From an uncultured Bacteroidota bacterium (GTDB lineage Bacteria; Bacteroidota; Bacteroidia; UKL13-3): a DNA stretch of 64,000 nt. Location: NCBI GenBank assembly GCA_903883965.1, contig CAISCU010000014.1:1-64000 (forward strand), given 5' to 3'. The notes beneath the pieces are model-generated. The model saw only the letters and a program-made list of their open reading frames with translations. It had not been told where the DNA came from and did not search any database. A program made the position numbers and the translations under genes. Positions 22,512 through 32,360 of this stretch are shown here, piece by piece; position 1 is the stretch's first letter; each line of letters begins with the position of its first letter.

Positions 22512-23675
22512 TTACACCTCATCACGAACTGGCAAAAAGCCTTTGTCGCCTAGCTGTTTGATAATGCTCCTAATTAAATAACTATTATCAAATCTTAAAA
22601 CGTACTTGCGTGTACCCTCTTTCTCTGGGATTAACATTTTACGATCAATTAATTTTCTGATTTGTCGAGATACTTCCGCATCCGCTTTCCCTGAAAAAAA
22701 ATCTTTTATATCAGATGCTGAAATTACCTGCTTATCTACAACTCTTTTAAGAATTTTAGCCTCAACGTCTGTGATGAACTTTCTTTCTAGAGAATGATGG
22801 ATTGACGGAAGCAAAATCTCCTTGCGTAAGAAATCATAATCAGACAACTTATCAATCTTTTCAATCTCATCTTTTAGGCCTTTTAAAACATACTCAATCC
22901 ATGAAGTAAGACCTTCAACTGTACCTTTGTCGGCTTCAGACAAAAAGTTGTAATAGTCATTCCTATTGCTGCAAAACACCGCTGTTGGATTAATAATCCT
23001 ACCAACATTTACGTTGAAGCCAGCTTTAACAAGCATGGCGTATGTAAACAACCTTACGGTTCTACCATTTCCGTTTCCAAATGGGTGAATCCAAACAAAA
23101 CGATGATGTGCGATTGCTGTTTTAAGTAAATCATATTTGGGACTATCACCTTTATTTACAAATTCAAGTAATTCATTCATGTAATCTTCAACTGCTAACC
23201 ATTCAGGCGGCTTATGTGAAGATTTATTTATTTTTAAATTTACTTTTCTGTAATCCCCAGGAGTTGAATCACCTTCTCCATCTGGTGGTGGAAGTAAACC
23301 ATCAACTATCTTTTTATGCATCTCACTAAGAAAAGCCCTATTTATTGGATAGTCGCTAACGTTCTCTTCTATAAAAGCCATCGCTTTTTCAATATTCTGA
23401 ATTTCACGAATACTTGGAGTATCGACTTTGATGTCCGATAATTTTGTCTCTATGTATTCAGCAATTGTTGTGTTATTCCCTTCAATTCTTGCTGATCCGA
23501 TACTTTCTAAAGTATGAAAGATGTGTTTCAGTTGAAAAAACACTTTAGGGTGAGTTGAGCCACTTAACTGCTTCTTACGCAAGTGATCCAATTCGATGAT
23601 TAAATCAGTTAGAGCGGAATCGAAAGTCGGCTCTACCAATTTCAAATCATAATGTTTAAATACTGCTTCTGACAT
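22512..23675 (-). CDS. Fic family protein (putative AMPylase) with N-terminal inhibitory motif
   Basis: Fic motif HPFGNGNGR; SARIEGN fits the (S/T)xxxE(G/N) inhibitory helix; C-terminal winged-helix-like region. Confidence 0.92.
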   Translation of the reverse strand: MSEAVFKHYDLKLVEPTFDSALTDLIIELDHLRKKQLSGSTHPKVFFQLKHIFHTLESIGSARIEGNNTTIAEYIETKLSDIKVDTPSIREIQNIEKAMAFIEENVSDYPINRAFLSEMHKKIVDGLLPPPDGEGDSTPGDYRKVNLKINKSSHKPPEWLAVEDYMNELLEFVNKGDSPKYDLLKTAIAHHRFVWIHPFGNGNGRTVRLFTYAMLVKAGFNVNVGRIINPTAVFCSNRNDYYNFLSEADKGTVEGLTSWIEYVLKGLKDEIEKIDKLSDYDFLRKEILLPSIHHSLERKFITDVEAKILKRVVDKQVISASDIKDFFSGKADAEVSRQIRKLIDRKMLIPEKEGTRKYVLRFDNSYLIRSIIKQLGDKGFLPVRDEV

Positions 23676-24504: not shown

Positions 24505-26676
24505 TTAAATCAAAACCTTTCTAAAAATCCCAACTACCCTCAAGTTTTGGGTTTCTTCATTGCGAAGTACAATAGGCTCGTATGCCATTGTAGATTTTGG
24601 CAATAGTTGAATCTCCAAATGCTCAAATGATTCCTCAGAAATCACTTTCTTGCTGCGATACTCCTTCACCGTATAATTCGATCCAAAATCTGAATCTTTG
24701 AAATCCGTTAATTCCACCAGCGTTATTAACCCATTGCGCGATCCATGTTGGTATCGCTCAAACAAACAAATCGATCCATTGGGAATGATTTTATTCATGG
24801 ACTCCCCAACAACCTTACATGCAAAAAAATCGTTCTTATTCTTTAATTGCGATTCCAATTCAATAAACTGTAACGATTCAACCTTCTGAATTCCACTAAA
24901 TAACCCTGCCGCAATTTTTAAATCGTAAAAAGGAATTGTGAATGAATTCGGTTCATCCAATATCCGCAAAGAAACGGAATTATTAGCCGCCTCAAAAGTT
25001 CTAAAATAGCCTTTTAAATACTTGCGCATTCCTTGATTACAAGCATATATAAAAGTTCCTTTCATCCCCCTTAGCATAATGGTTCTGTAAATATTGATTA
25101 TAAAATTATGAAGAACGTCATAGTCTGTAATGGTATTTTTACCAGCCTTATCCTTATAATTTTCCTTTATCACAATTAATTTCTGCTTCTCAAAATCATA
25201 ATCAATCTCAGGCCCAATAATTACACCTGTATAATTCAAATCATAGCCCTGGGTAGTATGAATGCAGCCTACTTCATTAATCGCATTTGTAGAATTCACC
25301 CAATCAATCGCCAAACTATTCCATCGTAGTTTTACATCCTGAATCTCAATATCAAAAACTAATTTATCCTTCTTCGACTTCCATTCCCAAGCATATCCTG
25401 CCACCATTCTTGACAAACCATCCATTTTATCTTTCCTACCAATCGCTTCCACCATATCCTGAATATTATCATAAATTAAGCATTCATATTCGGGCGACTG
25501 ATATGTTGAACCAGAAGAAATTTTGCCACTAAAAACATCATTCAGCAAATTCACATATTCATTTCCACCTTTGCAACGGAACTGTGTTTTCAAAACTTCA
25601 ATTCTCGTATATTCACTATGCTCTAATGCATCAAATCTTTCACGCAACACATCTGATGGTTTCACACTTTGATTGCGGTCATAAAATAATAACAACTTAT
25701 TCGATTGTTTAATTAACCAATCTAACTCAGATGCTTTTGAATGATCAAAACCTAATTGAGCACATACCTCATCAAAAGGTTTAAAATAAGGACCCAAATT
25801 AACCCTTCTCCTCAATCGATGTGCCTCATCAACAATCACCAAATCATATTTTCTTTTCGCCAAATCCGACGGTCCGATTACCATATTCGGCGATAACCCT
25901 TGAATATTTTTAAAAACCCTAGAAATGGTTTTTCTAAACGATGCCATGGGGATGCACAAAGCCATTTCCAAGTCGCCATAATGCAATCTTACTTGTTTCA
26001 GCAAATCAAACAACTCCTCATCTTGCTCATCAAAATCAGCGAAATTAAAATCATCTAAGTTTGTTTTGAGCAATTTGAATAAAAATATCGCTAAAATAGA
26101 CTTTCCAGTACCAGCCCCTCCTTGTATCAAACTTACTTTATTACCTTTATCAAGCAGGCATTCCAAAATCAATTTCAAACTTGTAACTTGCTCAGCAGAC
26201 AGAGATTTGTAAGGCGAATATTTAAACAAATCAGAATTACTAATATGTTCCAATGAATGCCTAGCAATTCCCAAAGTCCTCAACTCACTCCATATATCTG
26301 CGAATAAGTTCCAATACTCCTGTTTCTGATAATAGCGATGGTTGGCAATTCCCAAATTGCCATTCTTCAATTGATATTGCCCATCAGCATTAATGTATCG
26401 TATTAAATTCGACTCAACGTCCAAAGTGGCCGATTTATTAAAAAGCTCACTGAGTATCAAGCTCACAGAGGAAAGTTCCTTTTTATTGATCGATTTAGAA
26501 TGAGCGCGCATTCTTTTTATGACATCGGTTGTTTCCCCTACATATGCGCTTTTATTTTTATTATTATTTAAAAAATAAACTAGCGGCCAAGAAACAAAAT
26601 CTCTATGATTTAAGATAATTTCCGACTCTAAATCGGTATCAAAATTATAATTAGAAATTGTAAACTGTTTGCCCAT
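24505..26676 (-). CDS. GIY-YIG nuclease-like / DUF2075 (Schlafen group 3-like) helicase / LexA-S24-like peptidase fusion
   Basis: N-term LVYFLNNNKNKSAYVGETTDVIKRMRAH...VESNLIRYI; Walker A QGGAGTGKSIL, VIVDEAHRLRR; C-term KIAAG...VVGESM...YTVKEY resembling the LexA/UmuD AG cleavage site and Ser-Lys dyad. Confidence 0.85.
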   Translation of the reverse strand: MGKQFTISNYNFDTDLESEIILNHRDFVSWPLVYFLNNNKNKSAYVGETTDVIKRMRAHSKSINKKELSSVSLILSELFNKSATLDVESNLIRYINADGQYQLKNGNLGIANHRYYQKQEYWNLFADIWSELRTLGIARHSLEHISNSDLFKYSPYKSLSAEQVTSLKLILECLLDKGNKVSLIQGGAGTGKSILAIFLFKLLKTNLDDFNFADFDEQDEELFDLLKQVRLHYGDLEMALCIPMASFRKTISRVFKNIQGLSPNMVIGPSDLAKRKYDLVIVDEAHRLRRRVNLGPYFKPFDEVCAQLGFDHSKASELDWLIKQSNKLLLFYDRNQSVKPSDVLRERFDALEHSEYTRIEVLKTQFRCKGGNEYVNLLNDVFSGKISSGSTYQSPEYECLIYDNIQDMVEAIGRKDKMDGLSRMVAGYAWEWKSKKDKLVFDIEIQDVKLRWNSLAIDWVNSTNAINEVGCIHTTQGYDLNYTGVIIGPEIDYDFEKQKLIVIKENYKDKAGKNTITDYDVLHNFIINIYRTIMLRGMKGTFIYACNQGMRKYLKGYFRTFEAANNSVSLRILDEPNSFTIPFYDLKIAAGLFSGIQKVESLQFIELESQLKNKNDFFACKVVGESMNKIIPNGSICLFERYQHGSRNGLITLVELTDFKDSDFGSNYTVKEYRSKKVISEESFEHLEIQLLPKSTMAYEPIVLRNEETQNLRVVGIFRKVLI

Positions 26677-29481: not shown

Positions 29482-29886
29482 ATGGAATTAAAACCATACC
29501 TCATTTTTCAGGGCAATGCTGAAGCTGCCATGAATTTTTATATAGCTTGTTTTCAGGCAGAAATTGTTGGCATTAACCGTTACGACAATGCCCCAATGGA
29601 AATACCAGAAAATTACACCAACAAAATCTTGCATGCCGAAATTAAAATAGGCAGCCAATCTATGTTATTCTGTGATATTTTACCCGACCGACCTTTTGTG
29701 CAAGGCAGCAATTTCTCTATGTCGGTAGACATTCCTCAAGTTATGGAAATGGATAAAGTTTTCAATCAATTGGCGGTAAACGGTAAGGTTGAAATGCCCT
29801 TACAAGATACTTTTTGGGGAGCCCGTTTTGGCATTTTAATTGACCAATTTGGCATTAGGTGGATGTTGAACTGCGATTTAAATTAA
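29482..29886 (+). CDS. VOC family (PhnB-like) protein
   Basis: YLIFQGNAEAAMNFY...ILHAEIKIGSQSMLFCD...DTFWGARFGILIDQFGIRWMLN. Confidence 0.85.
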   Translation: MELKPYLIFQGNAEAAMNFYIACFQAEIVGINRYDNAPMEIPENYTNKILHAEIKIGSQSMLFCDILPDRPFVQGSNFSMSVDIPQVMEMDKVFNQLAVNGKVEMPLQDTFWGARFGILIDQFGIRWMLNCDLN

Positions 29887-30859
29887 AAGTTTTATATACT
29901 GCTTTTAAACGCAAAAAGGTATTGTAACAATTGGGGGTTTGTTCACCTTTAACCCTGGCCATATACCTAATTTTACCTAGCAAAATACGCACAAAATGTT
30001 GTTCGTTTGCAATGGCCTTGTGTTGATTTTTGCGCGCGTAATTTTGCATAGCATGGGTTAATCCATTCGTTTCTGCATCATGCAAAATGGCGCGCAACAA
30101 ACGGTAATACCGCCTGTCTAAATTCATTTTTTGATTCACTTTAATACCCGTTACATACTTGGCCTGATGGGGCCCAGCCATTCTGTATTTTTTAGGGTTC
30201 ACCTCAAAGCCTTCTTTCCATAAGAGTTCCATCACCAATTGGTCAAAGAAAATTGGGAAAGGAGTATGGCTCGAAAAACTCAAATCATCGGCATAACGGG
30301 TATAAATAATTGAGGAATTTAAATGCGATTCCAACAGTTGTTGCATCCTAAAATCTAAATGCCTGCAAACAATATTCGACAACAACGGAGAACTGGGCGC
30401 ACCCATAGGCAAACGCCCATCAATTGTGCACAACAATGCAAATTGAACCGCCATTTCATAAGTAAAACCAAAGGGTTCCAATTGCAATGCTGACACTACT
30501 TTTTTGGTGCTGATGGCATGAAAAAAATCTTTGATATCTAAGTTCAACAAATATGCCTTTTTCAAATGGCTGGTGGCATTGCTAAGGTTATTCCTATTAG
30601 AAAAAAAGGGTCCATTTTTCACAAAACCATGTACCTGATCTGGAGCTTGATACAGTTTGTTCAAATAACTGACAATGGCCAATTGTACACTTTTTAAATC
30701 CGGCTCTGGCGACTCAATGGTTCTTTTGCCCCCACTTTTCTTTGGAATTTGAAATGTGGTATATTTAGGGTTAGACATGAGTTCCATACAACGCAATATG
30801 TCTATGCGGTATGCTTCGCAAAAACTATCTAAACTATTGTATTTAATTGGATTGTTCAT
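29855..30859 (-). CDS. Retron reverse transcriptase
   Basis: SNATSH (NAxxH), LNLDIKDFF, GRLPMGAPSSPLLSN, YTRYADDLSFS catalytic motif, YVTGIKVN (VTG). Confidence 0.92.
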   Translation of the reverse strand: MNNPIKYNSLDSFCEAYRIDILRCMELMSNPKYTTFQIPKKSGGKRTIESPEPDLKSVQLAIVSYLNKLYQAPDQVHGFVKNGPFFSNRNNLSNATSHLKKAYLLNLDIKDFFHAISTKKVVSALQLEPFGFTYEMAVQFALLCTIDGRLPMGAPSSPLLSNIVCRHLDFRMQQLLESHLNSSIIYTRYADDLSFSSHTPFPIFFDQLVMELLWKEGFEVNPKKYRMAGPHQAKYVTGIKVNQKMNLDRRYYRLLRAILHDAETNGLTHAMQNYARKNQHKAIANEQHFVRILLGKIRYMARVKGEQTPNCYNTFLRLKAVYKTFNLNRSSTST

Positions 30860-30867
30860 GTACTTAA

Positions 30868-31013
30868 AAACCAGTGCTGCTTGTTTGATCTATTTACCAA
30901 TAGGACACATTTTCGCAGAAAATGCTAACCCATTGCCCCTAGTTACACAGACTGCAGTTACACAGCCAAAGACGGGTATTTCTTCATCAATTTTTGCAAG
31001 CAAGCACTGGCTC
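30868..31013 (-). ncRNA. Candidate retron msr-msd ncRNA
   Basis: Immediately upstream of the RT; flanking inverted repeats CCAGTGCTTGCTTG (a1, 30997-31010) and CAAGCAGCACTGG (a2, 30871-30883) pair over 13 bp with one bulge; internal hairpin 30898-30935 containing CATTTTC-TGC-GAAAATG. Confidence 0.7.
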
Positions 31014-31019
31014 ATTATT

Positions 31020-32360
31020 TTAAAGTTCTTTCAATCTGTTTACTGGAATGGTACTTTTAACTTGGCTTGATGTATTGAATCTGCCAAATACATCATATGA
31101 AATACGCACTGTTCCTGTTTGAAAACGGTTGTTTTTGGCCACCACCAATTCGGCTTGGTTCTGCGCGTTGGTACCATCTTCCCATTCGCACAAATGGTAA
31201 TAAGAAGGCCTGTATAAAAAAACCACTTGATCGGCCAATTCTTCTAACCAACCACTGTCTTTTAAATCTGATAAAATGGGCCTATTGGCATAACCTCTTT
31301 TTTCAGCATTTCTACTAATTTCAGAACCAATCAACAAACTAAAATTGTACAAAGTTGCCAGTCTTTTTAGTTCTTTGAGCACATTGCCTATGTATTTTTC
31401 TCGAGTGGTTGCCGTATTGAATTCAGGTTGTTGCAGGTATTGTATGCTATCTATGATAACCATATCTACTGGTGTCACAATCACTTGTTTTAAAATACTT
31501 GTCAGTAAATATTTTTCGTTACTTTCTAACAAATTGCAAAACTGAAACAAGCCCTCATTTTCTAATTGGTTGAGCTGTTCTATTTCTTTGTTCAATTCAG
31601 CTTCATTGGGTATTTCAAATTCAACATGATTTTCTAACGGAACTCCAAATAAATAGGCTTTTAAAAAACGTTGAGCGGTCATGCCATAGCTTAAAAACAA
31701 TACTTTTTTGCCTTGTTTAACGGTGATATCTTTGAACATAGACAACATCAATCTGGTTTTTCCCATTCCTGTTCTAGCGCCCAATACAGTCATTTGACCA
31801 GGTTCAAATCCTCCTCCTAACAATTGGTCCAATGCAGCAAAACCACTCGATAACAAATGGGTGTTTTTACGATGTACAATCTCATCTAATTGAGACAGCA
31901 ACAATCCAGAAAAAAACTGTGTAGATTGAACCGAATTGCGTTGTTTCAATTGAACCAATGAAAGCAAAGCCTGATCTATTTTTTCAGATAAACAGGATTT
32001 GGACGATGTCATTTGAGCAGCAATTTCGTTAAGCGTTCTAAGTTGATCGGCTTCAACAATCAAGGCAATACAATCTTCAACTTTAGAGGGTTCAATTTGG
32101 CATTGATTTAACCCATAAAACCACTCATTCCAAACAATTTCAGGATACTTTTCATAAACAGTTTGCTTAATTAATAAACTATCAAATGTTTGGTTCTGTT
32201 TAATTTTTTCAGCAATTGCACTAAAAATAAACCGATAAACCTGGGTTTGAATAAAGTGCTCATGTACTTGCAAAATACTCATCTGAAACACCTCTGGATA
32301 TTTCAATAAGCCTGCAATAAAATATTTCTCAAGTTCTTGAGTCTGAAACTGGGTAGTCAT
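31020..32360 (-). CDS. Divergent DnaB-like replicative helicase paralogue, candidate retron-associated gene
   Basis: SSGFAALDQLLGGGFEPGQMTVLGARTGMGKTRLML, DMVIIDSIQYLQ, RPILSDLKDSGWLEELADQVVFLYRP, AELVVAKNNRFQTGTVRISYD; N-terminal domain divergent. Confidence 0.87.
   Translation of the reverse strand: MTTQFQTQELEKYFIAGLLKYPEVFQMSILQVHEHFIQTQVYRFIFSAIAEKIKQNQTFDSLLIKQTVYEKYPEIVWNEWFYGLNQCQIEPSKVEDCIALIVEADQLRTLNEIAAQMTSSKSCLSEKIDQALLSLVQLKQRNSVQSTQFFSGLLLSQLDEIVHRKNTHLLSSGFAALDQLLGGGFEPGQMTVLGARTGMGKTRLMLSMFKDITVKQGKKVLFLSYGMTAQRFLKAYLFGVPLENHVEFEIPNEAELNKEIEQLNQLENEGLFQFCNLLESNEKYLLTSILKQVIVTPVDMVIIDSIQYLQQPEFNTATTREKYIGNVLKELKRLATLYNFSLLIGSEISRNAEKRGYANRPILSDLKDSGWLEELADQVVFLYRPSYYHLCEWEDGTNAQNQAELVVAKNNRFQTGTVRISYDVFGRFNTSSQVKSTIPVNRLKEL

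Follow-up and report, generated by a model that had tools for sequence, protein, structure and literature searches.

Retrons are grouped by their effectors into sixteen subtypes, with more being classified (PMC13405049). By PADLOC, NCBIfam and PDB profiles, the reverse transcriptase (RT) domains nearest to the one studied here are those of retron types XI (RT-protease) and XII (RT-TIR) and of Ec67/Eco2 (type I-C, RT-Toprim), in all of which the non-coding RNA (ncRNA) lies beside the RT, as it does in the window (the whole stretch of 64,000 nucleotides that was analysed). Their effectors are fused to the C-terminus of the RT, whereas the window RT is partnered by a DnaB-like gene that stands apart from it, upstream. 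Retron-Eco1 (Ec86, type II-A) has a separate effector gene, an ncRNA and a stand-alone RT, like the window locus, but the Eco1 effector is a nucleoside-deoxyribosyltransferase-like NADase and the window partner is an ATPase of the DnaB fold. The two-domain fold and the Walker motifs are common to the window protein and replicative DnaB (BstDnaB and Aquifex DnaB); however, the window protein falls in a separate clade, its equivalents of E241 and R420 are replaced, and a retron RT is adjacent to its gene. A weak match to divDNAB (PF20307, divergent DnaB-like ATPase) was shown by one retron-linked DnaB-like protein (L020, E=1e-8), whereas the main match of these proteins is PF03796 (DnaB_C), and we know of no link between divDNAB and RTs.

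The locus is filed as a retron on the sequence evidence of its RT, its RNA and its linked partner. At a probability of roughly 0.6, it is read as a three-part retron in which a DnaB-like ring is restrained by msDNA and, once freed, blocks both phage and host replication. The cassette is about 2.65 kb long and contains, in minus-strand order, the DnaB-like gene, the msr-msd RNA and the stand-alone RT (Table 1). Since no DnaB-like partner was found among the described retron types, the DnaB-linked retron probably represents a phage-defence system of a new kind. PADLOC, whose models encode the published retron types (I-XIII), matched no retron effector model to 18 DnaB-like proteins, and the weak matches obtained were to mad8 (MADS), AbiO and typeIV_DinG only. 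Full-text literature searches, with the supplement of the retron classification outside their scope, found no description of a DnaB-linked retron. Judged by these sources the type is new, and priority is not proven.

Table 1. Features of the DnaB-linked retron cassette (positions in the window)
Feature	Position	Strand	Remark
RT ORF	29855-30859	minus	stand-alone retron-type RT, 334 aa
Retron ncRNA (msr-msd)	30866-31015	minus	about 140-150 nt; covariance model, fold z-score
a2 outer arm CAAGCAGCACTGG	30871-30883	minus	pairs with a1
Inner a2 AUCAA	30885-30889	minus	partner of UUGAU
Predicted msd template	30890-30949	minus	placed by retron anatomy, between inner a2 and stem-loop 2
msd hairpin	30898-30935	minus	8-bp tip stem
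msr stem-loop 2 GGCUGUGUAACUGCAGUC	30950-30967	minus	GGUUGUGUUCCUGCAACC-type hairpin conserved among homologues
msr stem-loop 1 (AAGA..UCUU)	30969-30984	minus	covariation at 5/5 stem pairs in homologues
Predicted branching G	30985	minus	G of AUGA, first base past a1
Inner a1 UUGAU	30986-30990	minus	conserved inner helix beside the predicted branching G; homologue equivalent AAUUAU/AUAAUU
a1 outer arm CCAGTGCTTGCTTG	30997-31010	minus	13 bp with a2
Retron-associated DnaB-like ATPase	31020-32360	minus	446 aa, DnaB N- and C-domains; proposed effector

Analysis of the RT showed RVT_1 as its sole Pfam domain. The NAxxH, VTG and YADD motifs that the sequence-only reading had named on the minus strand were confirmed as NATSH (residues 94-98), YADD (189-192) and VTG (236-238), and these positions were invariant across the aligned RT homologues. 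A profile built from 16 relatives found solved retron RTs as its best matches in the PDB (Ec67, 214 bits; Ec86, 171 bits), and its best group II intron RT match reached just 61 bits. In PADLOC, the RT scored best against the models for the RT portion of types XI and XII. No fused effector was found on the 334-aa protein, in which the PADLOC profile coverage ends with the RT domain. Types XI, XII and I-C, with the RT fused to a protease, TIR or Toprim, were rejected as assignments, since the protein stops at 334 aa.

A different RT element (a group II intron remnant, DGR, DRT/Abi RT or CRISPR RT) is a very improbable explanation of the locus, given the VTG and NAxxH motifs, the retron RTs as best profile matches, the covarying msr-msd-type RNA and the result of an Rfam search, in which no intron RNA was found. 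What speaks for it is a sister RT lineage linked to cas1/cas2. The clade of DnaB-retron RTs contains four Saprospirales-type RTs that lie beside cas1 (L045/L019, L057, L060 and L086), with cas2 also adjacent in L060 and L086, and no retron RNA was found at these four loci. They are a persistent lineage of retron-derived, CRISPR-associated RTs. A retron-like CRISPR-associated RT from Haliscomenobacter, which unlike the window RT adjoins cas1/cas2 and is without a retron RNA, was described as one case and read as a possible recent insertion (PMC5541045). Judging by taxonomy, this RT and the cas1-linked sister RTs described above are probably of one lineage.

The sequence-only reading had proposed that the 160 nt upstream of the RT fold as a retron RNA, and both fold energy and a covariance model confirmed this. 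The 150-nt RNA folded at -50.3 kcal/mol against -36.4 +/- 3.6 kcal/mol for dinucleotide shuffles (z = -3.9), and none of the 200 shuffles folded as well. The positions earlier given for a1, a2 and the hairpin were all exact, as was the perfect tip CATTTTC-TGC-GAAAATG. The 13-bp pairing of a1 with a2 held as to its number of pairs and was refined in its layout, to 8 bp, a bulged U and 5 bp. The a1/a2 helix continues inward through UUGAU and AUCAA. At the end of inner a1, an AUG triplet was invariant in the 16 of 16 homologue RNAs (A22 T23 G24, alignment A3). By this homology and by retron anatomy, the branching G, earlier left unassigned, is predicted to be position 30985. The second msr stem-loop appears to resemble the GGAUGUUGUUUCGGCAUCC hairpin of Eco1. 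With the template placed as in Table 1, the msDNA is predicted to measure at most about 60 nt. The Rfam search at gathering scores found just a tRNA and no retron RNA in the window, so the RNA lies outside the catalogued families.

Comparison with the orthologue in a genome of the same genus (G003, RT 74% identical) showed that 13 of the 13 a1/a2 pairs were kept and none was broken. Three of them carried double changes (C-G to U-A, U-A to A-U and U-A to C-G). One G-U pair was changed to G-C in each of stem-loop 2 and the msd tip, and one pair was lost at the base of the msd and one in the inner helix. An independent alignment was made of 16 intergenic segments from distant homologues, excluding the window and its orthologue, and its common structure comprised the outer a1/a2, the inner a1/a2 and the two msr stem-loops. 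Double changes occurred at 18 of its 29 pairs, and covariation was 0.318, whereas shuffled alignments gave 0.127 +/- 0.014 and slid controls did not exceed 0.105. Compensatory variation, the test earlier set for the RNA, was thus present in both close (G003) and distant homologues. The covariance model from these 16 distant homologues (R2), although trained without the window, recovered the window RNA at 31009-30872(-) with 28.7 bits and E=1.9e-4 as the only significant match in 64 kb. A search of the genome (2.48 Mb) returned the window RNA as the only match (E=0.007). R2 also matched other DnaB-RT loci and gave no match in the tested loci that lack a DnaB-like gene. The reading of the locus as a retron is thereby supported by the RT motifs, the kinship to retron RTs and a covarying ncRNA.

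The DnaB-like gene belongs to the retron system. In a survey of loci taken from a relatives search and a genome scan, a DnaB-like gene was found directly upstream of the RNA and the RT in more than 30 loci, mainly of Bacteroidota and including one viral contig. Where the upstream genes of homologous RT loci were scanned, 10 of 10 were DnaB_C. In every uncut locus, the stand-alone RT of the clade was preceded on its own strand by the DnaB-like gene, L111 and the cas1-linked sister lineage excepted, and no DnaB-like gene lay beside the fused RTs of the same survey. The RT tree clade (support 98/85) holds 39 rows, 33 of them with a DnaB-like gene; the other six are L008 (contig end), L111 and the four cas1-adjacent Saprospirales-type RTs. 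Two loci (L089 and L099) were excluded as members because their DnaB matches were not adjacent to the RT. The gap was 630 nt in L021, and the gene in L024 is a more distant DnaB relative. Among 31 genomes, a second DnaB paralogue was present in 7 of the 7 with the RT and in 1 of the 24 others (Fisher p=3e-6), and the lone RT-less genome has it as an 889-aa frame, possibly with an intein. Distances between RTs and between DnaBs were correlated after dereplication (Mantel r=0.77; 0 of 5000 permutations).

The insertion site was compared among genomes of the genus. It is empty in G002, where the glyoxalase-like gene and yraN are convergent and about 50 bp apart. The RT-RNA-DnaB cassette of G000 and G003 lies exactly between these two genes. 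The unit gained or lost therefore consists of all three parts and nothing else. G001 was left out of this comparison since its contigs break there. The RT gene and the convergent glyoxalase-like gene overlap at their 3' ends by 32 nt (window 29855-29886), similarly in G003, which puts the joint of the cassette where the glyoxalase gene ends. The housekeeping neighbourhood earlier described stands for the outer flanks, but not for the gene immediately upstream, which is the retron-linked DnaB paralogue.

These results bear on whether the locus is an ordinary retron whose DnaB neighbour, as a housekeeping or passenger gene, is incidental. DnaB is a common gene, and vertical descent can fix gene order. 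Against this, the linkage spans divergent RTs of about 33-38% identity in unrelated flanks, presence and absence are coupled, the two genes coevolve, the empty site lacks both, and the pairing recurs on a viral contig (L170) and, in L074, with an RT of a different branch, so that an incidental neighbour is hardly credible. The viral contig (L170:2838-4852, IMGVR_UViG_3300005144_000001) contained the DnaB-like gene, an R2-type RNA (E=1.8e-5) and the RT, and in its DnaB-like protein the Walker A lysine is replaced by Arg (GMGRT). The Bacilli bin (L074:4067-5930) contained a 246-aa DnaB-like protein 130 nt upstream of the RT of the different branch, and no R2-type RNA was found there; it is perhaps a second, independent DnaB-RT pairing. 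At L096:5936-6901, in Chloroflexota, a retron-like RT is directly followed by an FRG-domain protein (PF08867), a possible other effector.

The product of the DnaB-like gene matched PF03796 with 139.9 bits. Its AlphaFold model (pLDDT 80) showed a two-domain DnaB fold, for which the top Foldseek matches in the PDB were all DnaB (E=4e-24). A role as the replicative helicase was rejected, as the true DnaB is encoded on another contig (G000:C13, 367 bits). The retron DnaBs were split from 29 housekeeping DnaBs in the tree with a support of 99, although several of the retron DnaBs are long branches.

Active-site residues were placed by alignment with BstDnaB (2r6a/4esv), whose E241 we take, as established knowledge, to be the DnaB catalytic glutamate. 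The window protein retained K201 of Walker A and D304 of Walker B, but the catalytic glutamate was replaced by G226 and the arginine finger R420 by N411. The Walker A Lys and the Walker B Asp were kept in the retron DnaBs. The catalytic position was Glu in 4 of 33 retron DnaBs, Asp in 17 and another residue in the rest, compared with Glu in 29 of 29 housekeeping DnaBs, and the equivalent of R420 was Arg in 14 of 33 compared with 29 of 29. A catalytic glutamate and K418/R420 are given as activating residues of DnaB in PMC8421360. Because the ATP-binding motifs are kept and the catalytic glutamate is replaced (in the window copy, the arginine finger too), a role as a clamp or roadblock is proposed, and the retron DnaBs would be ATP-binding switches or clamps and not processive helicases. 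With Asp in 17 and Glu in 4 of the 33, the loss of activity is not universal, and the Asp-bearing members may still hydrolyse ATP.

The same residues bear on the idea that the DnaB-like ATPase is an active helicase or translocase which processes or displays the msDNA as a sensor or maturation factor, with toxicity arising through an unlinked host pathway. The retron DnaBs show almost no variation in Walker A, Walker B, the Gln of H3 and several Arg/Lys residues of DnaB, and the Asp and Glu counts at the catalytic position agree with activity. We consider this unlikely, since the catalytic glutamate and the arginine finger are lost in many members including the window copy, and the cassette has no conserved third gene, which leaves no other effector in sight.

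Host DnaB is often captured by phages, and the DnaB-like ring could alternatively be a decoy that baits phage helicase loaders or helicase-binding proteins. The trigger would then be the binding of such a phage protein to the retron complex, and toxicity would come from the released msDNA-RT or from the bound ring. The retained DnaB fold, with DnaB as every top Foldseek match, and the many surface motifs kept would suit a decoy, as would a degraded active site, which is expected of a mimic. The retron DnaBs are, however, mostly 22-38% identical to the window copy and far from host DnaB, and many are missing the DnaB N-terminal domain. Such poor mimicry makes the decoy quite unlikely.

Under the preferred reading, a three-part retron with a restrained ring, the functional steps follow from anatomy, linkage and the established knowledge of other retrons. 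The RT would prime from G30985 and copy 30890-30949 into a small msDNA, and the particle of RT, RNA and msDNA would bind and restrain the DnaB-like protein. This protein probably forms DnaB-type rings, although ring formation is made uncertain by the many members without the N-terminal domain. The ring would be freed when a phage interferes with the msDNA or its partners. On single-stranded DNA or in replication forks, it would then serve as a clamp or roadblock, not as a processive helicase, and bring phage and host replication to a halt (abortive infection). That a catalytically crippled DnaB-family ring, held by the msDNA-RT, is itself the toxic effector and jams replication when released onto single-stranded DNA or replisomes is proposed tentatively, at somewhat short of an even chance. 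The context of the locus, in an uncultured genome and with no obvious defence island, speaks against the preferred reading.

Two other genes were observed in the window. The gene at 24505-26676(-) encodes a fusion of GIY-YIG, Schlafen group 3 helicase and Peptidase_S24, a candidate defence gene that had a weak PADLOC PDC-S14 match and whose counterpart in G001, of the same genus, is 97% identical. A Fic/DOC protein is encoded at 22512-23675(-) and matched the PADLOC SoFic model with 162 bits.

As small tools for making msDNA, the compact RNA (about 140 nt) and the stand-alone 334-aa RT also have interest. Should the ring be the effector, retron immunity would be linked directly to the replication fork, a new means by which phage replication could be stopped would be suggested, and the restraint of effectors by msDNA could be tested on one of the best-understood protein rings. 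If the reading of a crippled ring is true, the retron would have repurposed a replicative helicase for an attack on the replication fork.
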